Below are positions 9,062 through 25,135 of a DNA stretch of 49,371 nucleotides, in pieces (the first letter of the stretch is position 1; every line of letters begins with the position of its first letter). The notes below the pieces were generated by a model. The model had not been told where the DNA came from, searched no databases, and was given only the letters and a program-made list of their open reading frames with translations. Both the position numbers and the translations under genes were made by a program. Origin of the DNA: Chromatiaceae bacterium (GTDB lineage Bacteria > Pseudomonadota > Gammaproteobacteria > Chromatiales > Chromatiaceae); the NCBI GenBank assembly GCA_013426805.1, contig JACDZG010000050.1:1-49371 (forward strand), in the 5' to 3' direction.

Positions 9062-9784
9062 TCACCGAAGCATCACAAGCGGTGAGCCGGACCCCTCGGA
9101 GCGCAGTTCCAACACCGGGCTGCGCGACACGACGAGGGTGAGCGAGTGTTCCAACCGGAACGGGTAGAGCACGGCCGCGGACGCAAGCCCGGAAACGCTG
9201 ATGGCACGGCCGGTGGAGCGGATGGCGGCCTCGATGAGCCAGGCGATCAACGCCTCGTTGGTCATGGCCGTGGGCGGCTTGCGGATCACACGTCGCCCCT
9301 TGTCGACCCGCTCGCAGGTGCCCCAACTCGCCTGGGTCTGGAGAACCCGGTTGGCGGCGCGCCGGGTGACTTCACCCTCGCCGTAGGTCTCGGTCAGGCG
9401 GCGATGAATCTCGGCGGCGGTGCAGTCACCCTGGATGGTCGTGAGTCGGCCCACCAATTCGGCGACCTTGCCGAAGAAGGGATAGGCGGCGATGGCCATC
9501 CCCCAACAGAGGGCTGGGACGGGCACCGCGGGGAACTCATGCCGGATGCCGATGCCACGCTCGGCAAAGGCCATCAGCTCGGCGCGCGGGTTGAGCCATA
9601 GTCCATTCATAACGCTACGGGTATTCCGCTTAGACGGCCGCCCGAACCCCGCGGCATCGAACAGTGCGTCGATCGCCTCAGGGTCCTGAGCCCCACCGCG
9701 CACCTCGAGTGCGCACGTCGCCCAGTCGAGCGGAATGAAGCGATCGAAACCGATCCGGGGCGCGGTGGCCGGCGTAATGTTCAA
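9062..9784 (-). CDS. BrxA-like protein, last gene of the BREX operon
   Basis: A 240-residue cytoplasmic protein. I name it by position more than by motif: in the BREX type 3 order brxA follows pglZ. The central part has a helix-rich AAYPFFGKVAELVGRL segment followed by a basic winged-helix-like stretch (AAEIHRRLTETYGEGEVTRR, key residues RR, YG, RR). This is compatible with the small nucleic-acid-binding BrxA family. The start is a TTG at 9784 that overlaps the pglZ stop (TTGA), so it is probably translationally coupled. It could instead be an unrelated DNA-binding accessory protein. Confidence 0.55.
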   Translation of the reverse strand: MNITPATAPRIGFDRFIPLDWATCALEVRGGAQDPEAIDALFDAAGFGRPSKRNTRSVMNGLWLNPRAELMAFAERGIGIRHEFPAVPVPALCWGMAIAAYPFFGKVAELVGRLTTIQGDCTAAEIHRRLTETYGEGEVTRRAANRVLQTQASWGTCERVDKGRRVIRKPPTAMTNEALIAWLIEAAIRSTGRAISVSGLASAAVLYPFRLEHSLTLVVSRSPVLELRSEGSGSPLVMLR

Positions 9785-11787
9785 CGCCCGTCACTCACGT
9801 TCACGAAGGGGACGATCACCTCTTCGATCGAGCAGCCGCCGTGCGACACCAGCGCTTCACCGGGCGTGACGAAGGCGGTCCGGCCAGCGGCGAACAACGG
9901 CAGGAAGTCGCGAGGCCAAGCCGGAACCTCAAGGCTGAAGGTTCCGGGGAACTGCCCCGCGGACTCGGCCCGTAACAGCGCGCTCCGGTAGACCCGCACC
10001 CGTTCGCCGCGGGTCTCAGCGATCACCCCCTGATTCGGCCGCCCGATCCCGACGGCTTCGCAATTGCCATGATCGGCGGTCAAGTAGACCTGGAAGCCCT
10101 GGTCGAGCAACAGCGCAAAAAGCCCATCGACGAAGCCGGACTCGCACCAACTCGCGATCTGGCTCGCGATCCCCCGTTTGCCCAGGATGGCCCCATGCAC
10201 GATCTCATCAATGGTATCGACGACGATTCCCGCCACCTGGACGCCCGGGTTCGCCAGGGCGACCCCCAACGCGTCGAGCTGCTCGACGTGGCGAACGCTC
10301 TTGCGGTAGAGCACCTCACCTGGGCGCAATCCCTGGTCCTGCCAGAAGCGGGACCACAGGGCTGGCTCCCGGTGGGTGGTTTCCAGCGAGTCCGCAAATT
10401 CTCGGGGCCGTAACCCGGCGAACAGGGCTTGCCGAGAGATGGCGGTCAGGGTTGGCAGCCAGGCGAAGCAGGCCCCTTCCGCAAACGCGAACCGCGGTGC
10501 CCGTGCCGTGACCGCCTCGCGGATTTGGACCCACTGGTCCAGGGCCAGCCCATCGAACACCAGCAGCGCCACCCGTGGCTCCCCGGCGTTGCGGCGCAGG
10601 GCCAGGAAGCGCGGGATCTGGTGCACCATGGCTGGCGCATTCGCCATCGGCAGTGACGGCAGGTCCGCATAGTGTTCGGTCATCCAGGCCAGCAGACGTT
10701 CATCCGCGAGGCGCTGCAACTGCGAAACCTCTGCCCTGAGCCCCTGGGCGCGGGCGGTATCAAGGCTGTGGAAACGCGCGAGGGCCTCGCCGAACCGTCG
10801 CGCGAAAGCCCCCCAGTCCCGGTGCGTGGCCTCTGTGGTCGGCAGTGTCTCGACCAGGGCCTTCAAGCCGTCCACGACCAGATTGCGCAGTGCGGCGGGG
10901 TCCTTGACGATCCCAATCGCGATGCTTTTCGAGACAGTGGCCGGCAGGTCGACGGGAAAATAGTGAACGGCCAGGGGATGAAGGGTCCCGTCCAGGAACA
11001 TCGCATCAACCAGGCCCCGAATATCCGGATGAACGAATGGAATGTCGATCCTGACCCCGTGCCCCGGCAGCGTTGCCTCCGCGATGCGCGAGCCGGTGAT
11101 TCCTAAGTCCTTCAGGTACCGATACCAGGCATCCTGAACACATCGGAGTGTGCTCGCCTTCGATGACAATAGCTCGCTGATCGGCAAGCCTGTGAAGGCG
11201 TCATTGGCCTTGATGATCCGGGCCATGTGCTCAATGAGGACCGGGGGCAGTACCAGACCCCGGTGATGCAGCCGCAGTAATTCCCGCCAGAGGTCATCCA
11301 AGCGGCTGATCAGGTGCGGGGCGAGGCGGAACGCATGGGTCAGGATGAAGTCCATGGTCGCCGCCTCACCGAGCGGCTGGGAAGCATGTTTGGCGTGCGC
11401 ATCGAACAATGCGTCCAGATGCTCCGCGGCCACTTGCCTGACGACGCCGTAGCCTAAAGAAGGAAACAGGTTCGCCAGGCTCAGGTGAACCGTCCGCGCC
11501 TGACGCAGATAATCCCAGGGCAGCGCGTCCGGCTCCGCGCAACGCAGATGCAACACCAGGCTCAAGGCCCGCCCATCCTCACCGCGGTCCCATGCCTGCC
11601 GATAGTGCTCCTCGTAGTCGGCCCGAAAGGCTATCGGGTCCTCGAAGGACAGCACCTCAAACCCCCGAGCGCGCAACCCGGCCAGTATCCGCTCATCCAA
11701 TAGCACCGCGTCGGGGTCCGCTGCGATCCACAGACGAGCCAGGTCGGACGGAAACTCACCGAGGATGCGATCGACCCAGGCGCTCAT
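9781..11787 (-). CDS. pglZ: BREX phosphatase-like protein PglZ
   Basis: A 668-residue PglZ protein, the signature component of all BREX systems, with an alkaline-phosphatase-superfamily fold in its C-terminal half. Expected metal-site residues are visible: Asp412 in LLVFDGLALDQW, Thr in LPTLTAISRQALF (about 446-448), Asp572/His573 in LTADHGN, and His649 in VSHGGCSIEEVIVPF. The N-terminal half opens with WVDRILGEFP…RLWIAADPD, as in type 3 PglZ. The ATG at 11787 overlaps the stop of the preceding gene (ATGA). A longer frame start at 11838 was rejected because the extra 17 residues lie inside the upstream gene. PglZ likely works with the methyltransferase and BrxC ATPase in self-marking and phage exclusion. 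Confidence 0.93.
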   Translation of the reverse strand: MSAWVDRILGEFPSDLARLWIAADPDAVLLDERILAGLRARGFEVLSFEDPIAFRADYEEHYRQAWDRGEDGRALSLVLHLRCAEPDALPWDYLRQARTVHLSLANLFPSLGYGVVRQVAAEHLDALFDAHAKHASQPLGEAATMDFILTHAFRLAPHLISRLDDLWRELLRLHHRGLVLPPVLIEHMARIIKANDAFTGLPISELLSSKASTLRCVQDAWYRYLKDLGITGSRIAEATLPGHGVRIDIPFVHPDIRGLVDAMFLDGTLHPLAVHYFPVDLPATVSKSIAIGIVKDPAALRNLVVDGLKALVETLPTTEATHRDWGAFARRFGEALARFHSLDTARAQGLRAEVSQLQRLADERLLAWMTEHYADLPSLPMANAPAMVHQIPRFLALRRNAGEPRVALLVFDGLALDQWVQIREAVTARAPRFAFAEGACFAWLPTLTAISRQALFAGLRPREFADSLETTHREPALWSRFWQDQGLRPGEVLYRKSVRHVEQLDALGVALANPGVQVAGIVVDTIDEIVHGAILGKRGIASQIASWCESGFVDGLFALLLDQGFQVYLTADHGNCEAVGIGRPNQGVIAETRGERVRVYRSALLRAESAGQFPGTFSLEVPAWPRDFLPLFAAGRTAFVTPGEALVSHGGCSIEEVIVPFVNVSDGR

Positions 11788-12402
11788 GGTGGAAACCAGC
11801 CCTGCAAAATACCGACGATCCGCTCGAACGAGGGACATTTCCGGAGACCTTTGATGCTGGCCTGCCGACCAATCTCCTCGAAGTCGCGCGGCGAGATGGT
11901 GCGGCGCAGGTGCTCGCGCATGAGGTACTCAAACAGCTCTTTTGGCTGCTCCTGCTTCAATGTCTCCAGCGGCTTACCCCGCTTGAGCGCAAAGGCTTGC
12001 AGGCAGGGACCGATCGCGTCCGCCGTCACTCCGCAATGCTTGGCCAGTGCTGCCTCGCAATACCACAGCCAGACCTCGACCTCGGGGACCAAGGCGGTCG
12101 TGGCACTTCGCCCGGACCAGGAGTAGCTGTCGAGCCGCGCTTGAACCTCTATCTCAAGTTCTTGCGCAGACATCCGATGCTCGCGACCGCAACCGGCGAA
12201 ATCCCAAAGCAACAGCGCCTTGTCCACCCTTCTTCATCCGGGCCAGTTCAGCGCCGCTTTGCACCATCCCGGCATCGCGCTGGGGGTGGCGCTCGACATC
12301 GAAGGCGATGGCGCGGATGCCAAGCGCATCAGGCCGTCCGAGCACTGCGCGCATCAGGCCCAGGGCATCGGCGTCCGCTGTGTAGACCAGTAAATCCTTC
12401 AT
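11784..12402 (-). pseudogene. Small partner gene of the AAA ATPase, interrupted by a frameshift
   Basis: Two frames join into one protein of about 205 residues. The first (12402 down to about 12230) gives MKDLLVYTADADALGLMRAV… to …GAELARMKK. The second (from about 12227 to 11784) gives DKALLLWDFAGCGREH… to …GILQGWFPP. Removing one G from the AAGAAGGGTGGAC run restores KKVDKALLLWDF, so a single-base insertion breaks the gene, unless it is a sequence error or a programmed shift. The family is not recognised. Short proteins in this position after an OLD/ABC-like AAA ATPase are often nuclease or Toprim-like partners, and the acidic VYTADAD and LLWDFAG patches would fit. The start is 11 bases after the AAA stop and the end overlaps pglZ by ATGA. 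Confidence 0.65.
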
Positions 12403-12413
12403 TGTCTTGGTCG

Positions 12414-13721
12414 TTATTCCAAGAGTCCGGCGGCGAATACCACCCCTAGATCGGGTATGCCGTCCCACTCCTTTAGCATCGGATGCTTGGGGCCGGGGGT
12501 TACATGAGTCCCGGACTGGTCGCGCGAGAAGCAGAGCAAGGACTCGATGCCGCATTGCTGCACCACAAACGGTGAATGTGTGGCGAGTAACGTCTGTCCG
12601 CCCGGAATGGTCGACAGCGAGCGCAGGATGATCTCCAGGGCCTTGGGGTGGACCCCGTTCTCCGGTTCCTCGACCATGTAGAGCGCAGACTCAGCGGGGA
12701 GAAATGCGGGCAGGGTCAAGGCCAACATGCGCAGGGTGCCATCGCTCAAGAGCCAGCTCGGCACATCCAGGCCATTCTCGTAGCGTAGTACCAGAAACTC
12801 GGCGTTATCGGCCTGGCGCCGGTCCCAGCCGATATTGACCAGATCGGGCAAGGCGTAACGCAGATGCTCCACCCAACGGGCGACCGCCGAGCTTGGAGTT
12901 GCCCAGCGGGGTCCAGTTTCGCCATTGGTGCCCAGCAACCGACCAACCACACGGGCCATATTGGTACCGTCCAGATCCAGGTCAGTGCCCCGTGTCGCCG
13001 GGCACGGCAGCCGCATCGCCTGGCTGTTGAGCTGGATATAGCGCACCCCCTGCATCAAGAAGCGACGTACCGCGTTGGCCGTTGCGTAGCGTTCCTCGTC
13101 CGGGGGGGTGAGGGCCAGGGTCAACTTATCGAGCCCGAAGTTGAAAGAATCCTGATAGCTGCTCGTTTCACGCGAATAGTAGTCCGTGCCCTTCGACGTC
13201 TTTCCAAGCAAACGCTTGGGTTTGACGGATGGGCTGAAGCGCAGTTCCCCGCTCTTGGGCAACCGCGCCTTGGAGTATTGACGCAGGGCCTCGTCCTCGA
13301 TGCAGACGCCGAGCTTGGCGTCCTGCCGAATGGCGAGGCGATATTGCAGCAGACTGTCCGAGAGTGCGGGTAACTCAGCAGACAGGTCGAGCCACAGTTC
13401 GATCTCGACCGAGCCGCCCAAGCGCATCCACGTCAGGTCTTTGAAATCCGCGATGCCGCGCGACTCCGCTGCCGCACCAGGCCCATGGGCCAAACAGTCG
13501 CGAACGAAGTCAATGGCATCGAGCACCGTTGTCTTGCCGACCCCATTGGGTCCTACTAGAACCTGAAAACGGGAAAGCGGCAACGCCGCTCCCACGAGAG
13601 GATCGACAGGAAAGTGAAATTGCACCACCCCTGGACGGGCGGGCAATCTAGGGGCGTTTAACCTAGGGGCGTCCAACGATCGAACGCCCTTGAAGTTGCG
13701 CAGTGTCATCCCAGTAATCAT
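12414..13721 (-). CDS. AAA/ABC-like ATPase between methyltransferase and pglZ
   Basis: A 435-residue ATPase of the AAA_15/AAA_21 (OLD/RecF-like) kind. Walker A is GPNGVGKT (57-64). An ABC-type signature stretch is present as LLSDGTLRML, Walker B as MVEEPENGVHPKALE, and the switch His as LATHSPFVVQ. No nuclease (Toprim) domain is fused; the small gene that follows is its probable partner. It overlaps the methyltransferase stop by ATGA and so belongs to the BREX operon. In standard type 3 loci this interval carries the helicase brxHII, which is absent here. Its role is inferred to be accessory defence. Confidence 0.85.
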   Translation of the reverse strand: MITGMTLRNFKGVRSLDAPRLNAPRLPARPGVVQFHFPVDPLVGAALPLSRFQVLVGPNGVGKTTVLDAIDFVRDCLAHGPGAAAESRGIADFKDLTWMRLGGSVEIELWLDLSAELPALSDSLLQYRLAIRQDAKLGVCIEDEALRQYSKARLPKSGELRFSPSVKPKRLLGKTSKGTDYYSRETSSYQDSFNFGLDKLTLALTPPDEERYATANAVRRFLMQGVRYIQLNSQAMRLPCPATRGTDLDLDGTNMARVVGRLLGTNGETGPRWATPSSAVARWVEHLRYALPDLVNIGWDRRQADNAEFLVLRYENGLDVPSWLLSDGTLRMLALTLPAFLPAESALYMVEEPENGVHPKALEIILRSLSTIPGGQTLLATHSPFVVQQCGIESLLCFSRDQSGTHVTPGPKHPMLKEWDGIPDLGVVFAAGLLE

Positions 13722-16525
13722 GTCTCGGACTCCAAGCGGGTTAGGGCCTGGTCGTACCAGAGCAGCAGCTTCTCATCTTCTTGCAGGGCGTCCTCGGGAA
13801 CTTTTTGGGAAATAGCAATGATGGTCGCATAGTCCTTGTTCCCCCACGCGTGCTTGAAACCGGCCCGCATGGCTTCCAACCGGAAGACTTTCAAGCGGCG
13901 GCCGGTAAACGCACGATAGGTCTCGAATTCCTTTAGCAATGCGCGTTCCCGAACCATTTCCAAGTCGCGCGCCTTGTTTGGATCAGGCACATACCATCGA
14001 TCGGTAGCCTTGGCCTTGAGGCGTGGGTCTGATTTTTCCAGATTACGCAGGTCTGGCCAATTGGTCGACAGATAGCTATGAATTTGCGGCGGTACCTCGT
14101 GAGAATCGCTGGTGTTGCGGTCGTAACAGAGGAAATTGCCTTCTAATAGCTGCGATAGTTCTGGTTTCGCCTCATGTTTCTTCCAACCGGCGCCGAGTTG
14201 TTTCAGAAACTCAGGGTGAACTTCCTGGTAGTTTGATGGCTTCTTCTTGAGGAAGTCCGACAACCAGTCGATGGCTGAGCGCTCGTCAGCAATGAACATT
14301 TCCATTTGGGGGGCACGTGCGACTTGCAGGCGCTTTTTATCATATTCTGTTACCTGCTCGGGCAAGAAAACCATTCCGTCCCGCTCTGCAAAGCGTTGTG
14401 CTAAACCAGCCTGAAATTCCAGACTAGAAAGCGGCACCGGAAAATTATGTCGCACAAACCAGGCCACCAGTCGGTCAAAGATGATACGAGGATCGCGCTC
14501 TGCGATGAATTCAATTTGATCACCCTTCATCTTGACCGAAGGTAAGTATCTCAGATGTGTGCGAACGAAATCCCATGCAGAATCCTCATTGCCTCCGACG
14601 TTAGTGAGTCGATCTTCCAAGCCGCCATTCGGCTTATAGGCAGAAATAACCAGATCTTGTTTGACGGCAGTAGGCGTGGTGACGGCCTTAAAACCATGTT
14701 GTTTTTTATCGAGGGCTGAAACATTCGCCACAACAAACCCGGCTTCCTGCAATGCAGTCTGAATGGCGTTCCATACAGAAGCTTGAGTATTTGAGAATTC
14801 AACGGTCATCCATCGACCCGGTTTCAAGAGGCGATAAGCCTCCTGAAAACATTTTGTCATTAACTTTCGATAGGTATCAAGGCTCTTTCCTTGCTCTTTG
14901 TTCTCGATGGCTTCACTTTGGCTATTGGTTACTACTCTTAGCCATGATTCCCATAAAAAATTAAGCTCCGAATACCATAGATTGGCGCCAAATGGCGGAT
15001 CAAAAAACAGATAATCAATACTATTAGGCGCTCCTCGGATATCATCCGCTGAGCCGGTCAGTATAAGTGGGTGACTATTAGATGCAGAAATTGCGGCTCC
15101 GCGTATTGTCGCAGCGATTCTGTTTTCAAAAATATTAAGCCAATTCTGTTCTCCAGAGATTGATGGTACATACAATGTGCCCGCTGTATGCGGCTTCATC
15201 GGCCCCGTATCCTTTTGTATCCATCGCAGCGGCAAGAATCGCGCTGTCTTCAAACCAACGGTATAGCCGCCAAGTATAGCGAGTCGAGTTAATGGAGTCG
15301 TGCTATGATCGTATAAAGCTGAAAAAACAGCAAGACTTCTTGGCGTGAAGAAATGGTGTGTGTGAGTTATTCCAATTGGGTCGTTTCGCCGCGACTCTCC
15401 TCCTTCGATCATTCTGGCTGATGAAAACCAATAGTCGACCGTCATGGAGTCAATTTTCTCCAACAGCGACTTATCAAATTGGTCTGGAAACTTCTCGAAG
15501 CGAGTTTTCCCAACCGTGTAATTTAAGAGCACGGGAACCTGTTTTGCCTGCTTAACAAAATCCTGGATCGAGGAATCAAACTTTGTCAATAAAGCTTGTT
15601 CTAAGCTACGTTTTGTAAGCTCCTTGGAACAATGCGGACACAAGAACCGCTCCCGAACCGCGCCACCGATTTTATCTACTGCCACATTCCAAAATATCAT
15701 CTCGCCCGCACAATGAGGACAAACGAAAACATCAGACCATACGGTATAGTTTACTTTACCCTTTGTCTTTCCGTCAGAATGAATTGTCTCATACATCCAG
15801 CCGTATTCCTTATCGACTGCGGTTAGTATTTTTTGCGCTTCCTTCTTGAACGCGTAGGTGTCTGTAGGTGTATTGTAATTATAGGCAATAAATGTCGCTG
15901 TTGGAGATAGGTCATTTAGGATCGCGTAGCGCACACCGAGCTTGGAAAACGGCTTCCAAATGACGCGCCCATCCTGTTGCTCCTGCGTCAGGATTGTTCC
16001 ATCAGCCTCGACACGGTAACCCAGAGACTGCAATACTTTACGGTCACCGCAAAGCTGAGCTGCGACACCGGTCATACCTGTGCCACAAAACCCATCAAAA
16101 ACCACATCTCCCGGTTGAGTGTAATGCAGGATGTAACGCATGATGGCTTTATGCGGTACCTTGGTGTGATAGCTGTGAGCGTTGTAGATCGGATCGTTTT
16201 TTCCTTCACTTACGTCTGCCGCGAACGGTTCCTTGTCGTATGGAACCAGTGGATCATACGGTGTGCCGTAATGCTGAATGAAGTCCTCAATGAAAGGATT
16301 CGGACAAGCGGTGTAATACGGGGGATCCGATAGGGCAAGGATGTCTTCATCCGTTCCAGTTGGAAATCCTTCAATGTTGCGAAATGCTGGGTCTTTCAGC
16401 TTGTCGCGAAGGCGAGCCATATAGTGCTCACGACGTGCCTCGTCGCTCGGAAATGTCTGGCCGAAGCAGTCAACCGGTCCGGACAACTTCGGCTCGTCCG
16501 GAAAAAGTGAAAGAGATGTTTTCAT
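13718..16525 (-). CDS. pglXI: PglXI-type adenine-specific DNA methyltransferase
   Basis: A 935-residue N6/N4-type DNA methyltransferase, the modification enzyme of the BREX type 3 backbone. SDPPYYTACPNP (66-77) and a second DPPF in YLFFDPPFGANLWY (about 510) are motif IV-like. VFDGFCGTGMTG (142-153) is the AdoMet-binding motif I. Two CxxC pairs (VCPHCAGEM and LCPHCSKEL, about 270-310) should form a zinc ribbon. Base composition is visibly more A/T-rich than the flanking genes from about 14.0 to 16.5 kb, suggesting recent acquisition. It starts 26 bases after the AlbA_2-like gene. Its first 30 residues closely resemble a gene remnant at 18393-18503. Confidence 0.88.
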   Translation of the reverse strand: MKTSLSLFPDEPKLSGPVDCFGQTFPSDEARREHYMARLRDKLKDPAFRNIEGFPTGTDEDILALSDPPYYTACPNPFIEDFIQHYGTPYDPLVPYDKEPFAADVSEGKNDPIYNAHSYHTKVPHKAIMRYILHYTQPGDVVFDGFCGTGMTGVAAQLCGDRKVLQSLGYRVEADGTILTQEQQDGRVIWKPFSKLGVRYAILNDLSPTATFIAYNYNTPTDTYAFKKEAQKILTAVDKEYGWMYETIHSDGKTKGKVNYTVWSDVFVCPHCAGEMIFWNVAVDKIGGAVRERFLCPHCSKELTKRSLEQALLTKFDSSIQDFVKQAKQVPVLLNYTVGKTRFEKFPDQFDKSLLEKIDSMTVDYWFSSARMIEGGESRRNDPIGITHTHHFFTPRSLAVFSALYDHSTTPLTRLAILGGYTVGLKTARFLPLRWIQKDTGPMKPHTAGTLYVPSISGEQNWLNIFENRIAATIRGAAISASNSHPLILTGSADDIRGAPNSIDYLFFDPPFGANLWYSELNFLWESWLRVVTNSQSEAIENKEQGKSLDTYRKLMTKCFQEAYRLLKPGRWMTVEFSNTQASVWNAIQTALQEAGFVVANVSALDKKQHGFKAVTTPTAVKQDLVISAYKPNGGLEDRLTNVGGNEDSAWDFVRTHLRYLPSVKMKGDQIEFIAERDPRIIFDRLVAWFVRHNFPVPLSSLEFQAGLAQRFAERDGMVFLPEQVTEYDKKRLQVARAPQMEMFIADERSAIDWLSDFLKKKPSNYQEVHPEFLKQLGAGWKKHEAKPELSQLLEGNFLCYDRNTSDSHEVPPQIHSYLSTNWPDLRNLEKSDPRLKAKATDRWYVPDPNKARDLEMVRERALLKEFETYRAFTGRRLKVFRLEAMRAGFKHAWGNKDYATIIAISQKVPEDALQEDEKLLLWYDQALTRLESET

Positions 16526-16551
16526 TATTCAGCTTCCTGTTCTGTTATGGC

Positions 16552-18396
16552 CTATTTCTGCCCATACATGGCTCTTAGCTTTATTCCGGTTTCCGTCAGC
16601 ACATACTGCTGTCTGGATGAGGTCGGCTTATCCGGCACGGTCATGCGTAGCACGCCACCCGCCAGCAGCGGCTCCAGATGATGGGCCTTGAAGTGGGGCC
16701 GTTGTTTATAGCCGCTGATGGCAAGCAGTTCGTTGAGTGTGCGCGGGGTGTCAGCGTGTTCGACAATCACCCACTGGACGGCGCTCAACTGTACAAGCCT
16801 GGGCACTTGTTCGGTGACATCGGCCGCAACTTGTACGGTGACTTGTTCAGTCGCGTTTCCACTGGTGTCTTTCGTCGTAAGAGGCTGTTCTTGTAATGTT
16901 TTTGCGGCTCCCGCCGACGAGAATCTGACGCGCAGATGTTCCGCAAGAAAGAACAGGGAGCCGCCTTCGCTGGCCGGTGCCAGAAGGGCTTGTACAGTCA
17001 ACCGCTGAACAAGTCCCCGTGCTCCCGGTCCGTTCAGGCCAGTAAGCGCCTTGACATCGGCCAAGTCGATCTGGCCCTTGCGGGTGAGGTAGGCGAAAAC
17101 AGCGGCTTCCTGCTCCGACAGGTTCACCCCCAAGCTGGCTTGGGCAAGGAGTTGGGCCTCGGTGAGCAGCCGGTCCTTGGGTAGGATGAGCCGGAAGGTC
17201 TTCTCCACCTTGTCGTTCTCGATGATCGGTGGGACGTTGCCGAGCCGGCGCCAACCCTCAAAGATGGCGCCCATGCCTGAGCCGGCTTGATCGGACAACC
17301 CGATACGACGGAATGCTGCAACGATGCTGGGGTTCCGCACGGGTTTCTGACCCGGGTCGATCAGTTGTTCCCGCGAAGCAAAGGCGTCGCCGGGATTGAA
17401 GAGTTCGGACTGGTCGCGAAAAAACAGAATCGTTGGCCAGCGTGTCTGGTCGCCGACATCCTGATGGATGAGCAGGTTGATGGTGGCCTCGCGGAAGGAA
17501 ACATAATCCGGCGGGTCGTCCGCGCGACGCAGGCTGCCGGGGTCGATCGCGAAGGGATGGTCAGCATGGCGGGTGTAGAAGTTGACCACCGCTTGCCAGG
17601 TCTTGATGAGGTTTTCTTCCGGCACGGGCGTCATGCGGTCCGCCCAGCGAGCCTGGGCGGAATAGTTCGCCTTGGCTTCGCGGTAGACCTGAAAATCGAC
17701 GATCGGCCTTTTGAGGATTTGGCGGAAGGCCGCGTCAGTGCCGAAAATCAGGATACCTGCGCGCGTGGGAATCAACTGATGCTGCTGGTCGGCAACGCAA
17801 GCCATCTGTTGCAAAAACGCGATGTCCGAGATCTGCTCGTAGCGACCGGGATGGCGTTCTGAATGGCGTTGCCGGTACCAGCGAACCGTTGTTTCGTCGA
17901 AACAGTGCTCGACGTTAAAATCAGGCAACAGATCGCTGTCGTAGGGCGAACTGGAAGCATCGCGAATAAAGCGGATCAGCTCTTCGCCGGTGCAGGTATC
18001 ATCCCTGCCACCACGACGGATATAGGTCTTTGTTGGGTTACCATCTAAGAACACCGGCTTCTCGCCTCGCTGTGCTTCAGGTACATAGAAAACCATAACG
18101 GTCTTCTCATCAAGGGGATGCACCTGGCCCTCGATGGGGAGAAAAACGCTGATCTTATTGCGGTCACGTACTTGGCCGAGAAAATCGTTCTGAACCTTAT
18201 CGACGTCGATTACACCGGATATCGCGAATTGGCTGTTTTCCTGCCTGACACCAAAGACGAGGTGCCCACCCACCGTGTTAGCAAAGGCGCTGACCGTGGA
18301 CAACGCATCTTTAGGAACCGCATAGGATGCTTCCTTGAATTCGATATCGTTCCATTCGATTGAGCGCAGGCGCGTGAGGAGTTCATCGCGATTCAT
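16552..18396 (-). CDS. AlbA_2 / HATPase-like regulator (RecG-related ATP-binding protein)
   Basis: A 614-residue protein with the AlbA_2 (Schlafen AlbA) domain at about 10-145 (EWNDIEFKEA, FANTVGGHLVFGV). A GHKL-like C-terminal ATPase region lies at about 300-420 (FREATINLLIHQDV, NPSIVAAFRRIGL, GSGMGAIFEGWRR). Winged-helix segments follow to the end. Such proteins are annotated as ATP-binding or transcriptional regulators and are frequent in defence islands. The start overlaps an upstream 36-codon remnant by ATGA. Its last 30 residues closely match the product of a second remnant at 18500-18604, which shows that another copy of this gene once existed here. Its exact role in BREX is unknown. 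Confidence 0.85.
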   Translation of the reverse strand: MNRDELLTRLRSIEWNDIEFKEASYAVPKDALSTVSAFANTVGGHLVFGVRQENSQFAISGVIDVDKVQNDFLGQVRDRNKISVFLPIEGQVHPLDEKTVMVFYVPEAQRGEKPVFLDGNPTKTYIRRGGRDDTCTGEELIRFIRDASSSPYDSDLLPDFNVEHCFDETTVRWYRQRHSERHPGRYEQISDIAFLQQMACVADQQHQLIPTRAGILIFGTDAAFRQILKRPIVDFQVYREAKANYSAQARWADRMTPVPEENLIKTWQAVVNFYTRHADHPFAIDPGSLRRADDPPDYVSFREATINLLIHQDVGDQTRWPTILFFRDQSELFNPGDAFASREQLIDPGQKPVRNPSIVAAFRRIGLSDQAGSGMGAIFEGWRRLGNVPPIIENDKVEKTFRLILPKDRLLTEAQLLAQASLGVNLSEQEAAVFAYLTRKGQIDLADVKALTGLNGPGARGLVQRLTVQALLAPASEGGSLFFLAEHLRVRFSSAGAAKTLQEQPLTTKDTSGNATEQVTVQVAADVTEQVPRLVQLSAVQWVIVEHADTPRTLNELLAISGYKQRPHFKAHHLEPLLAGGVLRMTVPDKPTSSRQQYVLTETGIKLRAMYGQK

Positions 18397-18503
18397 GCTG
18401 TCTCCATCCGTTTCCGACGCACCGCGTCGCTCGGGAAGGTCTGGCCCAGGCAGTCGACCGGACCGCTGGCCGCGGCAGTCTGACCATCAAACAGGTCGTT
18501 CAT
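18393..18503 (-). pseudogene. 5' remnant of a second PglXI-like methyltransferase gene
   Basis: A 36-codon frame whose product contains SGPVDCLGQTFPSDAVRR. The intact methyltransferase begins with SGPVDCFGQTFPSDEARR at the same distance from its start, so 15 of 18 residues agree. The DNA after this point is the AlbA_2-like gene, so the remaining methyltransferase sequence is lost. The ATG overlaps the stop of the preceding remnant and the TGA overlaps the next ATG, so the fragment is still set up for coupled translation. Seen directly in the sequence; the interpretation as a truncated gene is strong. Confidence 0.8.
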
Positions 18504-18604
18504 GGGGCCGTATCCTTCTGTTGTTGCCCGGCGAGCAAGGCTGTCCCGCGCTCGGGCAGTTGGTAGCGCTGCTTGCTGGAGCGGGGTTTATCGGGCGGGG
18601 TCAT
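18500..18604 (-). pseudogene. 3' remnant of a second AlbA_2-like gene
   Basis: A 34-codon frame encoding MTPPDKPRSSKQRYQLPERG and a short tail. The intact AlbA_2-like protein ends with MTVPDKPTSSRQQYVLTETG and a similar tail; about 17 of 30 aligned residues are identical. It therefore is the diverged C-terminal end of another copy, fused directly behind the HEPN gene. It begins in an ATGA overlap with the HEPN stop and ends in an ATGA overlap with the methyltransferase remnant. With that remnant it reproduces the AlbA_2-to-methyltransferase junction found intact at 16525-16552. Confidence 0.78.
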
Positions 18605-18993
18605 GACAGCCGCTTGATCTCCTGCTCAGCCCAGTCTTTGAGCGTCTCGACCAAGACCGCAGTCTCCGACTCGTCGATCAGGGGAACCGGGCAAGCTTCA
18701 TAGCGGAATCGCACCGCGTAGTTGTTCAGCAGGCGCAGTGCGTCTCTGGCGGCAGGGACTTGGATCTGGCGACTCCCGCATAATGAGAACAACACGGCAA
18801 GGTCGTGGGTGCGCTCGAATATTAGTCCATGCATCACCAACACGGCCTTGAGGAACTTCTCGCAGGCTTGTTGCGCATGAAAGCCCATCACCTCTTCCGG
18901 CGCCTCACCCGATTCCCGCAAGAGCCGTAGCGTCAGCCGATCGCGCAGCCCTGCTGCCAACATGGCCTCGGCCTGTTCTTTATTGGCGTTCAT
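18601..18993 (-). CDS. HEPN-domain protein of an MNT-HEPN pair
   Basis: A 130-residue HEPN-domain protein (PF05168-like; GFHAQQACEKFLKAVLVMHG and FERTHDLAVLFSLC). MNT-HEPN pairs act as toxin-antitoxin modules in which the nucleotidyltransferase modifies the HEPN protein. I do not see the RX4-6H ribonuclease motif of HepT toxins, so this HEPN may be catalytically inactive or of a different subgroup. The ATG at 18993 overlaps the MNT gene by 14 bases. The stop overlaps the following remnant by ATGA, so the pair is wired into the BREX operon. Confidence 0.8.
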   Translation of the reverse strand: MNANKEQAEAMLAAGLRDRLTLRLLRESGEAPEEVMGFHAQQACEKFLKAVLVMHGLIFERTHDLAVLFSLCGSRQIQVPAARDALRLLNNYAVRFRYEACPVPLIDESETAVLVETLKDWAEQEIKRLS

Positions 18994-19300
18994 AGAGAAC
19001 CTTACCTTCCCGTGCCGCCCAGTAAACCGGTGTGGTCCACCAGTCTCGCCGTTTCTCGAACTCACTCTGGGAGAACAGCAGCAGGTCGACACCGACGCCA
19101 AGCCCGTCCAGGGCACCATGCAGACGCAGATATTCCTGTGTGTAATCGGGTATCTCCCGTTCGACGACGAGTAGATCCAGATCCGAGCCTTCATCGGCAT
19201 CGCCGCGGCCATAAGAGCCGAAGACGATGACCTTGAGTGGCTCACGGGCAGTGGCGGCTATCCGCTGGACTGCTTCATTGATCGCGGCTTCGGTCAACAT
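18980..19300 (-). CDS. MNT-type minimal nucleotidyltransferase
   Basis: A 106-residue nucleotidyltransferase of the MNT/MntA type. The catalytic signature GS-x10-DxD is complete: Gly28-Ser29 (FGSYGRGD) and Asp40-Leu-Asp42 (SDLDLLVV). The protein probably adenylylates its HEPN partner to neutralise it. GAGGA lies 7 bases before the ATG at 19300; a GTG three bases earlier is possible but too close to that site. The region just upstream is a palindromic repeat element rather than a promoter I can recognise. Confidence 0.85.
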   Translation of the reverse strand: MLTEAAINEAVQRIAATAREPLKVIVFGSYGRGDADEGSDLDLLVVEREIPDYTQEYLRLHGALDGLGVGVDLLLFSQSEFEKRRDWWTTPVYWAAREGKVLYERQ

Positions 19301-19340
19301 CACTCTGTCCTCTGTATTGCGGAGTGGCCAGTTGTAGCTG

Positions 19341-19388
19341 TCGGGTTAGCCCGACGCCCGGATGGTGGATGCGCTGCGCTTATCCACC
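19341..19388. repeat. Double palindromic interspersed element
   Basis: Two hairpins lie side by side: TCGGG-TTAG-CCCGA (19341-19354) and a 25-base palindrome with GGTGGAT…ATCCACC arms around a GCGC-rich centre (19364-19388). The second matches the GTGGAT/GCGCAGCGC motif I know as a widely dispersed repeat in proteobacterial genomes. It separates the truncated DUF4276 gene from the MNT-HEPN pair and may mark a deletion or insertion endpoint. It could also attenuate transcription. Confidence 0.65.
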
Positions 19389-19417
19389 CTACGGAAGGAT
19401 CGATGTGGCCCTGCAAG

Positions 19418-19651
19418 TCAAAGCCCCATGCGACGCTTGAGCTCGTCGATAAATCGCTCGGCCCAACCGGAGGCGTCGATGACGGCAATACAGAAAGACT
19501 CGTAAGCTTTGTCCCGACTGCCCCGGGCCTTGATGACAGGGCGAGCCGTCACGCCGGCCTTGGTGAGGAAGGTCCTCAGGCCCTCACGGCAGGCCGCGCG
19601 CAGATGATTGGTGTCGCCGCCGCCCTCGACAAATACGGTGACATCTACCAT
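19418..19651 (-). CDS. DUF4276-like protein, C-terminally truncated
   Basis: A 77-residue protein opening with VDVTVFVEGGGDTNHLRAAC and continuing through GSRDKAYESFC, as at the N-terminus of DUF4276 proteins. Full family members are roughly twice or more this length. Here similarity stops after about residue 60 and an unrelated-looking WAERFIDELKRRMGL tail runs to the stop, so the 3' part seems lost. The gene start overlaps the end of the AAA ATPase gene by 7 bases, the usual ATPase-DUF4276 pairing. The truncated end lies about 30 bases from the palindromic element. Confidence 0.6.
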   Translation of the reverse strand: MVDVTVFVEGGGDTNHLRAACREGLRTFLTKAGVTARPVIKARGSRDKAYESFCIAVIDASGWAERFIDELKRRMGL

Positions 19652-20558
19652 CGTGTCCCTCCAAGGTCGCCGCTCATCCACAACTCGCCGAGGCGGTATT
19701 TTTCCAGCCAAGGTTTCAGTTCGTCCGCTTTAAGCCTCTTCAGCCTGGTGCCATTCTCGTCCTTCTCGGCGACCAGTACATTCTCCGGTTCATCGTGCAT
19801 GCAGTCTACCAACACATCGGAATGCGTGGTAACAATGAGCTGGCAGCGCTCCGCTGCCTCCTTCAGCAGGTCGGCGACCGTGGGCAGGATATCGGGGTGC
19901 AGGCCAAGCTCCGGCTCCTCAATGCAGATGAGGGGCGGCGGCTTGGGGTGGCAGAGGATAGCGAGCAGGCACAGATAACGCAGGGTGCCATCCGAAAGGC
20001 GCGCCGCCGGGATGATCCGATCGCCCTCCTGAATAAAGACCTGGACGCTGCCGCCCTCGATCTGAATACCGTAGTCATCGATGGCGTCGTAAAGCTTGCG
20101 CAGGGCCGCCAGCACGCGGGCTTTGACTGCCGGTTCACGTTGGAAGCTTCGGCCCGTCCGGGTTGGTAGCTGTAGTAGGGAGAGGGTGGGGGTGCCCCGT
20201 CTTTCCTACCGCTGCCTTCAATGATTTCCGCGACCAACGCGAATTGCTGTCCGGTTTCAGTGAAGGCGAGGTCATGGCGCAGATTGTGTGGTCCTCCTGG
20301 GTACGCGATTTCGACGTCGAGATTCGCGACACGGGCTCCCGTGGGTCCCTTCCAGAGCCATTCGCGCACGCCGCCGCCTTCGCGGATCGGCTTCTGCAAG
20401 TCCCGCGGTGCGTTGCGCAGCAGGTCGAAGGCTTCGAGCAGGTTGGACTTACCGGAGCCGTTCGGGCCTATCACCAGATTAAGTGGGCGTAACGGCGTTG
20501 CCTCCGTACTGGTTCCGAAGCTCAAGAAGCGGTCGAGTCTGATGGCATGGATCAACAT
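19645..20558 (-). pseudogene. AAA ATPase partner of DUF4276, interrupted by a frameshift
   Basis: Two frames join into one ATPase of about 304 residues. The first has MLIHAIRLDRFLSFG and Walker A GPNGSGKS (31-38). The second has LVLAALRKLYDAIDDYG-type sequence, a signature LSDGTLRYLCLL, Walker B ICIEEPELGLHPD and switch His VTTHSDVLVD. The frames must switch near 20150-20165, where reading frame 2 gives GRSFQREPAVKARVLAAL. The length of the joined gene (914 bases) implies one missing base. This is either true decay or a sequencing error. It starts 13 bases after brxC, inside the BREX operon. Confidence 0.72.
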
Positions 20559-20571
20559 TGGATGGTCCCGT

Positions 20572-23500
20572 TTACTCCAACACAAACCGCAGCTTGCCGG
20601 CGTCCTTGCCCTTGCAGCGGTCATTGATGAAGGTCTCGAAGCGCTTGCGCAGTTCGTCCGGAGTGGCCGGCGAGCCGCCCGCCAGTAGCGCCTGCTTGAT
20701 GTCTTCGCCGGTCACGGTCACTGGTTCCAAACCCGATAGGGCCTCTTGGACCGCACCCACGAACCCCGGGGGGATAGGCTCCGGTAGGACTTGGGCGTCG
20801 AGAAATGCCTCGATGGTGTGGCGGTCGGCTGGCTTGAGAAGGCTGAAGTTGGCCTGGATGATCGGGTCGTCCAGGTTGTCGAGCAGGGTCCGCTGCCAGG
20901 CAGAGAGTAGACGATCCAGGTCATCGTCGAGCTTGGTCAGGGCATTGGCGGCGGGACCGAAGGCGAGCGATTCATTAGCCGGTTTGAAGCTGCAATGGGG
21001 GCAGATGGGGCTTGCGACCAGTTCGGACTCGGTGAGCTGGTAGCAACTCTTGAGATTCGCCAGCCGATCCTCGAAGGCCGCAAGCTGGCTGGTCGGCATC
21101 AGTGAGATTTCCGCCAAGGCGCGCAGGGCGACCAGTCGGGGGTCTTTGCGTAGGGCGGTCTTGGTCTTATCTTCAGCGACACCCAGGCGCGCCTTGCTGT
21201 GGCTCGTGATATAGGCGTTGACATAGTCCTTTTTCAACTTTGCGAGGGCGTGGCGGCAGTCGGCGGCGATCTGACCGCTGGTGCTGCCGGACTTGATCGC
21301 ATCGGGAGTCTTACCGCGGGCGCCGCTAAGCTTGGCGATGGTTGCGGCCCGATCGGCCTGGGCCTGCGCGATCCATGGGTGGTCGCCCGGTAGAACGATC
21401 TCGGCCTGGGACAGATACGCGGCCGTGGGACCGAGTTCGGCGACCAGCGCCAGCAGGGTCTCGCCGGCGGAGAGCACCTCCAGGTTCTGCTGCTGGGCTG
21501 CGATGTCTTCCAAACCAATGCGCAGGTTCTTGAGCTTGCCGACGGTGTTGTAGGGCGAGAGGGCCTCGGTGAAGGTCTTGAGTGCGTCGAGTCGCGTGCG
21601 CCAGTCGCGTAGCTCCTCATCGCGCAGCAGTGACTGGCCCCAGAAGGCCAGGCGGCCCGGCATATCGGTCGTCGCCTTGAGGCCGCGGTTGACCAGCTCG
21701 CCGACGCCCTGTTGCAACTGTTTGACGGGCTCCTCTGAGCCTTGGGTCGCCAGTTGGGCCAATCCGGGTGACAGGCCCAGCAGTTCGAACAGCGCCCGCA
21801 GGACCTCCACGTCGAGTGCTTTCGGGGCCTCGATGTGCTTGAACGCCTTCAGTTCGTCGAGCGAATGCTCGGCCAGTTGGGCGAGTTTGCCGGAGTCGAT
21901 CTTGTCGCCGGTGATGGCGAGCACGCAGTGACCGCTGTAGACCAGGGCGCCCAGGACGACCGCGAACAGGTCCGGCTCCAGGCGGAACCGGGCGGGGGCG
22001 AAGTGCTCGGCTCCGTAGGCGCCGGTCAACAGCTCGCCGCGATTGAGCACTTGGCCATGACCCTTGGCCTTGAGGCGGGCCAGCACCTCCTGGGCGTAGG
22101 GCGAGCGAGCAGCGTCGATGCGGTCACCGTCGAGCATTGCCAAGGCATCCAGGATCGCCACGGCGTCTTTGGTACGCGGGCCGCCGGCCAGCCACCGCAA
22201 CGCGCTCACCACGAGCTGCTTGCGGTTGGTCTCGGTAACGAGCAGCGAGAAGGTCGGATACTCGGGGGCGAGGTCGGCAAACTGTTGGCCGAATGCGAGC
22301 CCGGAGGTCACATTGACGATATCGCGGAAGTTGATGCGGTCATCGGCCCCCAGGCGGGCCTTGTCGCGCATTGAAACCCCGCGCACCCAGTCCGCAAGGG
22401 GCTTGGTCTTGCCGGCGTGGGTGACTTCCAGGGCGGTCATCTGCTTTTCCTGGAGCCACTTGCTCATGGCCTTCAGGGCATCCTGGCTCTTTCCGAGATA
22501 GATGGTCTTTGGGTTGCCGCTGGCCGTGGAGGCGAGATCAAGGGCCGCGGCATAGGTGGCCAGGTGGTGCTTGAGGTCGTCGTCGAGCCCATTGAGGCGG
22601 AAGAACACCTCGTCCGCCAGGTGTTCGTCGCGAAAGCGCGGCGCGTCGAAGGGCTGGATGAAGTAGATGTAGAAGTCCCGCGGCGGCTGCGCCGTGGGGC
22701 GATCATTGGGGGCGCCGAAGAAGAGATAACCAACGCGCTCGACCCGCCGCTCCTGCCATTCGATCTGATACTGCCAGATCTGGAAGCCGGAGACGTAGGT
22801 GGTCTCGTCGGTGCGCTCCATGAGCTGGCGCACCGCGCTGAAGTAGGCTCGATCCAGCGCATCGTCGGACAGGGCATCGGCGCGCTTTTCGATCTGCGCG
22901 TCGTAGTCGATGTCTTTCTTGAGATCGAGGTAATACTGATCGGTGCCTGGCGCCTTGGAAATGAACTGTCCGTTGACGGTCTTCAGGGTCTCGCGGAGCA
23001 CCGTCTGGACCAGTGAGAGGAGATCGGCTGCCGGGTCGCCGCCCATGTCCTCGATGCCCGGCTGGTACAAACACAGGGTATCGCGTAATTCCTCAGCCGT
23101 TGGCCCGATGGGAATATAGATGTCGCCGCCGGTGGTCAGCCGGTGGACCGACAGTGCGGCGATCAGGCGTAGGGCCATGGGCTTGTAGGTCGGGCGGGCA
23201 AAGGCTTGTTGGACCCGTCCGGACAGCACCTCGGAGACCTTGACCACGGGACCGATGGCGGGGTCGGCACGCAGTACCGAGTTGGCCGTGACGGTGTCCC
23301 AGAAGCGGTCATACCCGAGCAGTCCAGGTCGATCGACGGGGACCTCATCCGCAAGCATGGCCTGTATCTGATCACGGATGGTAACGAGCGCGCCGCGCTT
23401 TTCGGCGAAAATCAGACGCTCGAAGGTGCCGATGTAGTCCGGATGCACCGGGAACAAGCGGACGTACTCATCCATCCGCTCGTTCATAGTGCCGTAGCAG

Positions 23501-24333
23501 CGAGCGAAGGGCCGCAGATAGGTGCGAATCTTGTCCTGCTGGTCGGCGGACTTTTTCAGCAGTCGTTCCGCGACCACGAAACTCACATCCTGGCGCGCGA
23601 GCAGCACTTGGGTGAATCGGTCTTTCACCCGTCGCAGGCTGTCTGCGACATGCAGGAAACGGCTGCTGTCGAAGACCGCTTCCTGGACGCCGGCCACGAA
23701 GCGAAAGCGCAGATGCTTGCAGACCTCACCGATCTCGCGCAGGAAGGACAGCTCGAGCACCAGGTCGTGGTCCTTGCGCGAGCGCAGATACTCCAAGAAT
23801 TCGTCAACCACCAGCAGGACGCCCTGGCCCGGATAGCGCTCGTCGAAGGCTGCCATCATCGCCTCGAAGGCGGCCTTGTTGTTGACTACAAGGTCTGCGG
23901 ACGGGAAGCGGTAGTCCACGCCGATCCGCTTGAGCAGGGACTCCAACTCGCCGGTCACGATCCGGCGCAGCGACAGTTCGCTTACAACCTCGGTGCGGTG
24001 GACTTGGAACCGGCCGGCAATCGCGCCGGCCGCCGCGGCGACCTTGGGATGACGCAGCATCGACAGGTAGCTGGCGTCTTCCGCCACCAGCGAGAGCACC
24101 GACATCAGGTGTGATTTGCCGGTGCCGTAGTTGCCGACGACGAGCACGCCCTTGTGGTCGACGGACTCGTCGAAGGAGAGTTGCGGGATCATGGCACCTG
24201 CGATGCGCTCGGCCATGTCGTCGGAGATAACGTAGGTCGAGACCAGCTTTTGCCCCTCGTCGGCACGGTTCGCGTCAAGCAGTTGGATGACCGATTCAAT
24301 CGGCTCGAATTGGATGAGATCCCCGTAGCGCAT
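20572..24333 (-). CDS. brxC: BREX large ATPase BrxC (type 3 form)
   Basis: A 1253-residue P-loop ATPase, the conserved BrxC of BREX. Walker A is GNYGTGKS (67-74) and Walker B is LLVVDEFLEYL (about 173-183). A single CxxC pair (SPICPHCSFKP) lies near residue 1115. Length is as expected for the type 3 protein. AGGA lies 5 bases before the ATG. It follows brxF with an 18-base gap, the type 3 order. BrxC is thought to be an AAA+ motor that couples recognition of foreign DNA to the methyltransferase/PglZ complex. The gene appears intact. Confidence 0.9.
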   Translation of the reverse strand: MRYGDLIQFEPIESVIQLLDANRADEGQKLVSTYVISDDMAERIAGAMIPQLSFDESVDHKGVLVVGNYGTGKSHLMSVLSLVAEDASYLSMLRHPKVAAAAGAIAGRFQVHRTEVVSELSLRRIVTGELESLLKRIGVDYRFPSADLVVNNKAAFEAMMAAFDERYPGQGVLLVVDEFLEYLRSRKDHDLVLELSFLREIGEVCKHLRFRFVAGVQEAVFDSSRFLHVADSLRRVKDRFTQVLLARQDVSFVVAERLLKKSADQQDKIRTYLRPFARCYGTMNERMDEYVRLFPVHPDYIGTFERLIFAEKRGALVTIRDQIQAMLADEVPVDRPGLLGYDRFWDTVTANSVLRADPAIGPVVKVSEVLSGRVQQAFARPTYKPMALRLIAALSVHRLTTGGDIYIPIGPTAEELRDTLCLYQPGIEDMGGDPAADLLSLVQTVLRETLKTVNGQFISKAPGTDQYYLDLKKDIDYDAQIEKRADALSDDALDRAYFSAVRQLMERTDETTYVSGFQIWQYQIEWQERRVERVGYLFFGAPNDRPTAQPPRDFYIYFIQPFDAPRFRDEHLADEVFFRLNGLDDDLKHHLATYAAALDLASTASGNPKTIYLGKSQDALKAMSKWLQEKQMTALEVTHAGKTKPLADWVRGVSMRDKARLGADDRINFRDIVNVTSGLAFGQQFADLAPEYPTFSLLVTETNRKQLVVSALRWLAGGPRTKDAVAILDALAMLDGDRIDAARSPYAQEVLARLKAKGHGQVLNRGELLTGAYGAEHFAPARFRLEPDLFAVVLGALVYSGHCVLAITGDKIDSGKLAQLAEHSLDELKAFKHIEAPKALDVEVLRALFELLGLSPGLAQLATQGSEEPVKQLQQGVGELVNRGLKATTDMPGRLAFWGQSLLRDEELRDWRTRLDALKTFTEALSPYNTVGKLKNLRIGLEDIAAQQQNLEVLSAGETLLALVAELGPTAAYLSQAEIVLPGDHPWIAQAQADRAATIAKLSGARGKTPDAIKSGSTSGQIAADCRHALAKLKKDYVNAYITSHSKARLGVAEDKTKTALRKDPRLVALRALAEISLMPTSQLAAFEDRLANLKSCYQLTESELVASPICPHCSFKPANESLAFGPAANALTKLDDDLDRLLSAWQRTLLDNLDDPIIQANFSLLKPADRHTIEAFLDAQVLPEPIPPGFVGAVQEALSGLEPVTVTGEDIKQALLAGGSPATPDELRKRFETFINDRCKGKDAGKLRFVLE

Positions 24334-24351
24334 GCGTTCCTGTCTCTTTCT

Positions 24352-24852
24352 CTATTGTTCGAGGTCGAGCGCAACCAAACCATCAAGGCTATAGTCACGA
24401 TATTCCGCGTGCCCCATCTCCGCATAGGTCAGCCGCGGCCCGTTGCCGCCGTGCCGCAACGCGGACGGCCAGACCGCGACGACTCGCCGGCCCTGAGCTT
24501 GGCGCTTGAGCAGATCAAGCGGATTGAGAGCGAGTGAGGCATCGAACAGGAGTTCGATGTTGTCGATCAGCAGGAGATCGCCGCGGCAGTGGGGTTTCGC
24601 GATCTCGCGCAGGAGGTTGCCCGCCTGGAGTTGGCGCTCGCGGTACGGCAGCGCGGCGAGCCGTCGGCCCAACGTCGCGCCCACATTCAGCGGCGAGGCC
24701 CCGGTGCGGTCGCCGAAGGCCCGCAGCAGTGCGGTCTTGCCGCTTCCGGGCGGCCCGATTAGCAGGACAAGCTTGCTGTGCAGGGCGGCGAGATCGTCGA
24801 CCAGCCGTTCCAAGTGCGCGAGCATGCTTGATCGTGAGGATATCGCCTTCAC
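24352..24852 (-). CDS. brxF: BREX type 3 P-loop protein BrxF
   Basis: A 166-residue small ATPase. Walker A is LIGPPGSGKTALLR (about 31-44) and Walker B is DLLLIDNIELLFD. The family BrxF is specific to BREX type 3 and is its first gene, which fits its position here. The start is uncertain: a GTG at 24852 has AAGG 6 bases upstream, while an ATG at 24825 would give a protein nine residues shorter but has no clear ribosome site. It diverges from the DMT transporter gene across about 280 bases, where the operon promoter must lie. Confidence 0.88.
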   Translation of the reverse strand: MKAISSRSSMLAHLERLVDDLAALHSKLVLLIGPPGSGKTALLRAFGDRTGASPLNVGATLGRRLAALPYRERQLQAGNLLREIAKPHCRGDLLLIDNIELLFDASLALNPLDLLKRQAQGRRVVAVWPSALRHGGNGPRLTYAEMGHAEYRDYSLDGLVALDLEQ

Positions 24853-24896
24853 CGGGCCTTATGGGCATCAGGGAGACCACATTGGCCCCAGGCGTC

Positions 24897-24926
24897 AGGA
24901 TAGTGCAGATTTTGCCAAACTCACAA
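24897..24926 (-). promoter_or_regulatory. Candidate promoter of the BREX operon
   Basis: On the minus strand TTGTGA (24926-24921) and TATCCT (24902-24897) are separated by 18 bases, each 4 of 6 to the sigma-70 consensus. Transcription would start about 40 bases before brxF. A CGATC-6-GATCG inverted repeat (24930-24945) sits just upstream and could be a regulator site. Based on pattern only. Confidence 0.3.
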
Positions 24927-25135
24927 TGTCGATCTCGTATGATCGGTTGTGCGAAACCCCTTCCAGAGCGACCTTGACAAGGATGTTTCGGGAGGCCTGA
25001 GCCTGGGGAGATCTGCGTTGTTCAGGTTGAGTGATCCTGATCGACGCGTCAGACTGACCGACTTGTCCGCGGCACGGGCACCGAATCCGAATCCGTACCC
25101 ATTCCCCGCGTCACCGAGCCCTGCACGCCCGCGCC

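Follow-up and report, generated by a model that had tools for sequence, protein, structure and literature searches.

Two short frames in a BREX type 3 operon of a Chromatiaceae bacterium: probable scar of an AlbA_2–PglXI exchange

The window, that is the whole stretch of 49,371 nt analysed (contig C304 of a genome of 7.6 Mb in 349 contigs; estimated contamination of the assembly 4%), contains a BREX type 3 operon on the minus strand. This assignment rests on five genes, BrxF, BrxC, PglXI, PglZ and BrxA (PADLOC E-values 7.2e-38, 0, 0, 1.3e-229 and 6e-54, respectively). The gene order is BrxF, BrxC, a decayed AAA_21 gene with DUF4276, MNT, HEPN, two short frames, AlbA_2, PglXI, a second AAA_21 gene, PglZ and BrxA. 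Backbone genes brxF and brxC occupy 24352–24852 and 20572–24333, and 20572–25000 is 94% identical in DNA to the genus relative G002. They are followed by an AAA_21 ATPase gene decayed into two frames (19645–20624; Pfam AAA_21 on both), a DUF4276 remnant (19418–19711; DNA homology to G005, ending at ~19422), a dispersed repeat of ~36 bp present in many copies in this and related genomes (19360–19396), an MNT nucleotidyltransferase gene (18980–19303, ATG at 19300; Pfam NTP_transf_2, 9.2e-11) and an apparently full-length HEPN gene (18601–18993; Pfam HEPN, 1.2e-14 in a scan of 18601–18990, start codon excluded). Beyond the two short frames lie the AlbA_2 gene (16552–18396; Pfam SLFN_AlbA_2, HATPase_c_4 and Fic-like_C winged helix), the methyltransferase gene pglXI (13718–16525) and, 3' of it, an AAA_21 ATPase gene (12414–13721) that is resident by DNA homology to genus relatives (80–82% to G002 and G005 over 12893–13586). 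The last-named gene also matches PADLOC HEC-01A (9.5e-39), and a 147-aa frame at 11784–12227, overlapping the start of pglZ, gives a weak HEC-01B match (8.4e-4).

An earlier note on this DNA had taken the short frames for a diverged copy of an AlbA_2–methyltransferase junction, and the features from which it argued were all recovered. Frame 1 (18500–18604, 34 codons) and frame 2 (18393–18503, 36 codons) are on the minus strand, with ATGA overlaps between the HEPN stop and the frame 1 start (18601–18604), between the two frames (18500–18503) and between frame 2 and AlbA_2 (18393–18396). Frame 1 agrees with AlbA_2 residues 585–614 at 17 of 30 positions and frame 2 with PglXI residues 15–33 at 15 of 19. 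Their scores, 74 and 85, were each reached by 0 of 2000 shuffles, the best of which gave 41 and 49, respectively. No match of frame 2 to the present PglXI was found beyond those 19 positions, and frame 1 covers just the last 16 positions of the Pfam Fic-like_C profile. The present AlbA_2/PglXI junction (16525–16552) is a 26-nt gap with no ATGA overlap.

PglXI was searched against 142 related genomes and the DNA of the scar against 146 genomes of the family (cut-off E 0.001). Positions 18415–18604 were 83% identical to G002 and G001, and 18427–18604 were 83% identical to G005 (E 2.6e-46 to 7.9e-52 for the three). Of the 146 genomes, 11 gave a match: besides the own genome and these three, seven matched weakly (E 4e-7 to 7.6e-4, 25–58 nt); a further relative, G006, is absent from the eleven and may not belong to the 146. 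A prime marks here the versions of the two genes found in these relatives. Both are whole in G002 (AlbA_2', 605 aa; PglXI', 925 aa); in G006 the AlbA_2 ORF has 606 aa and its stop overlaps the start of pglXI' by ATGA, pglXI' itself being split over contigs. The remnants are closer to the relatives than to the present pair: frame 1 is 74–79% identical to its counterparts in G001, G002, G005 and G006 vs 57% to the present AlbA_2, and frame 2 is 71–87% identical over 31 residues to the pglXI' starts of G001, G002 and G005, against the 15 of 19 residues of the present PglXI. Over 90 nt, frame 2 differs at 9 positions from G001 and G002 and at 21 from G005. With these DNA and protein matches in genus relatives, the frames are identified as the junction scar of another AlbA_2–PglXI pair, frame 1 being the last 34 residues of AlbA_2' and frame 2 the first ~30 codons of pglXI' followed by 6 codons of junction or incoming origin.

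When the own genome was probed with PglXI' of G002, two places were hit, the present PglXI (55%) and the scar (81%, residues 1–32, E 3.3e-10); no relocated copy of the lost pglXI' was detected elsewhere in that genome at E 0.001. Probing with AlbA_2' of G002 gave the tail at 18500–18610 (68%, E 1.7e-8), the present AlbA_2 (47%) and distant family members (≤34%). No match to the scar plus MNT–HEPN region was found among plasmid records. The frame 1 end that gives ATGA is common to the window, G005 and G006, the end in G001 and G002 being two nt longer; since G006 has it too, it does not single out a G005-like ancestor.

The DNA between brxC and the scar is stratified. In G001 and G005 an AAA_21–DUF4276 pair stands in place of the AlbA_2' body and the AlbA_2' tail is kept: in G001 it is fused in frame to DUF4276 (322 aa, Pfam DUF4276 and Fic-like_C; L060 7282–8250), and DUF4276 of G005 is cut short by a frameshift, stopping at an ATGA, so that the 34-codon frame 1 stands on its own. 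Of the short frames as independent genes free of the adjoining large ones, G005 offers half an example: its frame 1, with no AlbA_2 body, can be taken for an ATG frame of 34 codons in its own right, but a full pglXI' follows it. The decayed AAA_21 and DUF4276 copies of the window are 83.5–87% identical in DNA to those of G005 and G001. The AAA_21 gene (83.5% to G005, where it is a 409-aa ORF) lacks ~250 nt (239 nt unmatched vs 489 in G005), and the DUF4276 remnant lacks ~400 nt inside; a Pfam match to DUF4276 was obtained for the homologues in G005 and G001 and none for the fragment in the window. Since these remnants lie in the window and the pair is joined to the tail in G001 and G005, the immediate ancestor was probably AAA_21–DUF4276–tail–pglXI', without a whole AlbA_2'. 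The description of the lost module as an AlbA_2–methyltransferase pair thus holds for its ends, which are those of such a pair, but the AlbA_2' body had probably gone earlier, to AAA_21–DUF4276. Homology to the relatives is interrupted from ~19420 to 18605 by MNT–HEPN, preceded by the 36-bp repeat; MNT-homologous DNA occurs elsewhere in G007 (72%) and G001 (73%), and the length of HEPN appears natural by comparison with one homologue in G007, which ends at a similar length. MNT–HEPN is a separate, later arrival, so that debris of more than one event is layered in the slot.

The slot between brxC and pglXI was surveyed in 39 sequences, of which 33 had clean ends (L044, L051, L055, L056, L062 and L063 were dropped; several short-flank loci, among them G035, G017, G028, G009 and G044, are outside the survey). 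Nine of the 33 slots were empty (≤111 nt), and nine, the window included, held a full-length relative of this AlbA_2. A stranded AlbA_2 tail was present in four (the window, L033, G005 and, as a fusion, G001); a stranded pglXI start was seen in the window only, and in none of seven further loci (L125–L131; L132 repeats the L080 slot). Among 20 proteins, mostly from slots, that were scanned with Pfam, 7 had no family, and the others include Phd/YefM, PemK, DUF2806 and HATPase. At L037:8895–9158 a second brxC 3' end (87-codon frame, DUF6079 match) lies between two cargo genes and is an independent exchange scar; L061 gave a weak second BrxC-end match (32%, E 5e-4). In L033 the AlbA_2 tail is a 170-aa frame (9483–9995), ATGA-linked to a 260-aa gene with no Pfam match and placed after AAA_21. 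In the BREX-3 locus L125 (G570:C27:5500–25400) one full-length PglXI gene precedes brxC and another follows it. That the space between brxC and pglXI is a repeatedly used exchange slot, in which cargo and target specificity are swapped together via the conserved brxC and pglXI ends, with the AlbA_2 winged-helix tail as a reusable joint (fused or translation-coupled in at least four loci), is a tentative and rather unlikely generalisation.

The persistence of the tail might be explained by a function of its own, the winged-helix tail of AlbA_2' being kept as a small part that binds DNA or acts as an adaptor next to the methyltransferase, with new cargo fitted to this tail. The tail does outlast the AlbA_2 body in G001 (in the DUF4276 fusion), G005, L033 and the window. 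In G005, however, it is affected by a frameshift, in the window 34 residues of it are left, the nine empty slots indicate that systems manage without it, and crossovers on the pglXI side would leave tails in any case; this explanation was judged improbable.

Still less probable is a functional relay, proposed in the earlier note, in which the ATGA overlaps would carry ribosomes from HEPN to the new AlbA_2. Both frames are open, overlaps are found at all three joints, and an AlbA_2 tail is also kept as an ATGA-linked frame after different cargo in G005 and L033. The overlaps have, however, an ordinary origin: that between frames 1 and 2 is the AlbA_2'/pglXI' overlap, as in G006, and that between HEPN and frame 1 coincides to the base with where DUF4276 overlaps frame 1 in G005. 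AlbA_2 has its own GGAG 5 nt before the start, and a second pglXI start was absent from the 32 other slots and the seven further loci. Changes private to the window fell on codon positions 1, 2 and 3 in the numbers 3, 4 and 5 for frame 1 and 1, 1 and 3 for frame 2; the 7 of 12 at positions 1–2 in frame 1 are near the neutral value of 8, and the 2 of 5 in frame 2 are compatible with constraint, such counts being a weak test of the relay given short frames with few sites and some changes that may predate the scar. The relay thus found little support, and present-day translation of the mini-ORFs is probably incidental.

The composition of the genes differs along the operon (GC/GC3: PglXI 48.5%/0.50; AlbA_2 57.3%/0.67; BrxC 63.5%/0.82; scars 64–65%/0.73–0.74). 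In the BrxC tree (29 rows) the window falls within the genus (100/100) as the sister of G002 (100/99); the nearest BrxC outside the genus comes from Thiohalocapsa, by which the organism is probably a purple sulfur bacterium. In the PglXI tree, which has 28 rows and leaves out the contig-split gene of G006, its sister is L031, from Candidatus Accumulibacter (100/100), and a 100/100 split separates it from G001, G002 and G005. Judged by these two trees, the incoming gene is phylogenetically foreign and the backbone is resident. Since the Chromatiaceae loci L032 and L033 fall in the PglXI group of the window, the donor may have been close to the family. The present AlbA_2 has its best match, 73%, in L036 and is 45% identical to those of G002 and G006. 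By BrxC the window stands nearest to G002, by cargo layout nearest to G001 and G005, and frame 2 has more in common with G001 and G002 than with G005, so that the resident ancestor was itself a mosaic. A tandem duplication of the own AlbA_2–PglXI module with decay of one copy would account for the resemblance of the remnants to the present pair (17 of 30 and 15 of 19 positions), and G570 has two PglXI genes in one locus, but the remnants are closer to G001, G002, G005 and G006 and the present PglXI belongs to another clade; with this tree and these DNA identities self-duplication was rejected as scarcely credible. Chance similarity, suggested by the shortness of the frames, is practically nil in view of the DNA E of ~1e-51, the matching genomic position and order and the shuffling result.

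Replacement of the resident pglXI' by a foreign AlbA_2–PglXI module is the preferred reading, and it is considered very likely. Before its last codons, PglXI was closer to L031 than to G002 and G005 in 15 of 16 amino acid windows of 60 columns, the exception standing at 36 vs 35%; by DNA, the sole near-level window was that of columns 240–300. The last 9 codons of pglXI are 96% identical to G005 and 79% to G002, and 54–71% to four donor-like genes. A homologous crossover was likely at the shared stretch LLLWYDQALTR just before these 9 codons; by these identities, the right crossover zone is the conserved pglXI 3' end, the last ~18 codons (13718–13778), and pglXI is foreign except for its last codons. 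The earlier note had left open whether the present module replaced the older one or was inserted next to it; with the right crossover in the pglXI 3' end, replacement of pglXI' stood and the side-by-side insertion did not.

On the left side, homology to pglXI' ends at 18415 and homology to brxC–AlbA_2 junctions ends at 18406 in L036, L043, L046 and L058; in two of the six alignments upstream of or near the AlbA_2 start it falls short of 18406 (L035 at 18399; L042 at 18387, inside AlbA_2). The left joint apparently lies within 8 nt, 18407–18414, placed by the ends of local alignments and less certain than the right one; it is without long homology. The bases beside the AlbA_2 start resemble the brxC stop plus AlbA_2 start of other loci. 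This points to a brxC end as the place where the incoming DNA started; the likeness of 18397–18406 to a brxC end may instead reflect a shared ribosome-binding site.

The two frames can with good confidence be regarded as dead sequence from a gene exchange in the variable brxC–pglXI slot of this BREX-3 operon, and the following history is proposed from the sequence comparisons. The AlbA_2' body would have been lost to the AAA_21–DUF4276 pair with the AlbA_2' tail and pglXI' kept, and MNT–HEPN would have taken the place of the DNA that linked DUF4276 with the tail. Incoming DNA starting near a brxC 3' end would have recombined by homology at the conserved pglXI 3' end and, on the left, through a short or non-homologous joint just inside pglXI', so that the new AlbA_2 came to follow the stump. 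The MNT–HEPN and PglXI events may have occurred in either order.

Xenologous replacement of specificity genes is known in defence operons, e.g. restriction-modification loci. As there, a foreign specificity gene is found in a backbone that follows the genus, with a crossover in conserved sequence; here, in contrast, the left joint lies inside the first codons of the old gene, and these codons remain upstream of the incoming DNA. Replacement of a gene within a defence operon is a known kind of event, here resolved nearly to the base. Five backbone genes are common to this locus and BREX type 3, and the brxC–pglXI slot differs in its layered, partly dead cargo. In a literature search, exchange scars in BREX loci were unnamed in the titles and abstract openings among the matches listed. 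The auxiliary effectors of BREX loci include, in the part of the paper by Rakesh and Krishnan (2026, PMC12839542) considered here, Schlafen with minimal histidine kinase and wHTH, HEPN/MNT and OLD-ABC ATPases; the same gene classes occur in the present operon, where we infer the AAA_21 genes to be OLD-like. The same part of that paper covers neighbourhoods and effector classes, and exchange scars and crossover points are unmentioned in it. The locus offers a near-nucleotide record of a BREX methyltransferase exchange, with earlier states persisting in sister genomes, and makes it possible to test for changes of methylation motif in BREX type 3 through the exchange of modules; footprints of this sort (stranded AlbA_2 tails or pglXI starts, second brxC ends) could be sought in other defence loci to gauge how much their cargo turns over.

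PglXI is thought to be the gene that sets the DNA target of BREX. The PADLOC match to PglXI is full-length. Columns 300–540 of its alignment, the most diverged part, show 20–35% amino acid identity to G002 and G005 vs 44–71% in the other 60-column windows before the last, and correspond roughly to the expected place of the target-recognition insert, the type 3 methyltransferase being described with a large central insert in the part of PMC12839542 considered. The exchange would have brought another version of this insert and probably another methylation motif; a change of motif is predicted as likely from the alignment. The donor-like genes are also diverged in these columns (L031, 36–76%; the other three, 16–62%, apart from 72% outside the stretch), so the stretch is variable in general. 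As a separate observation, the PglXI gene at L054:11500–12765 is interrupted, near query residue 520, by ~1.3 kb with many stops.
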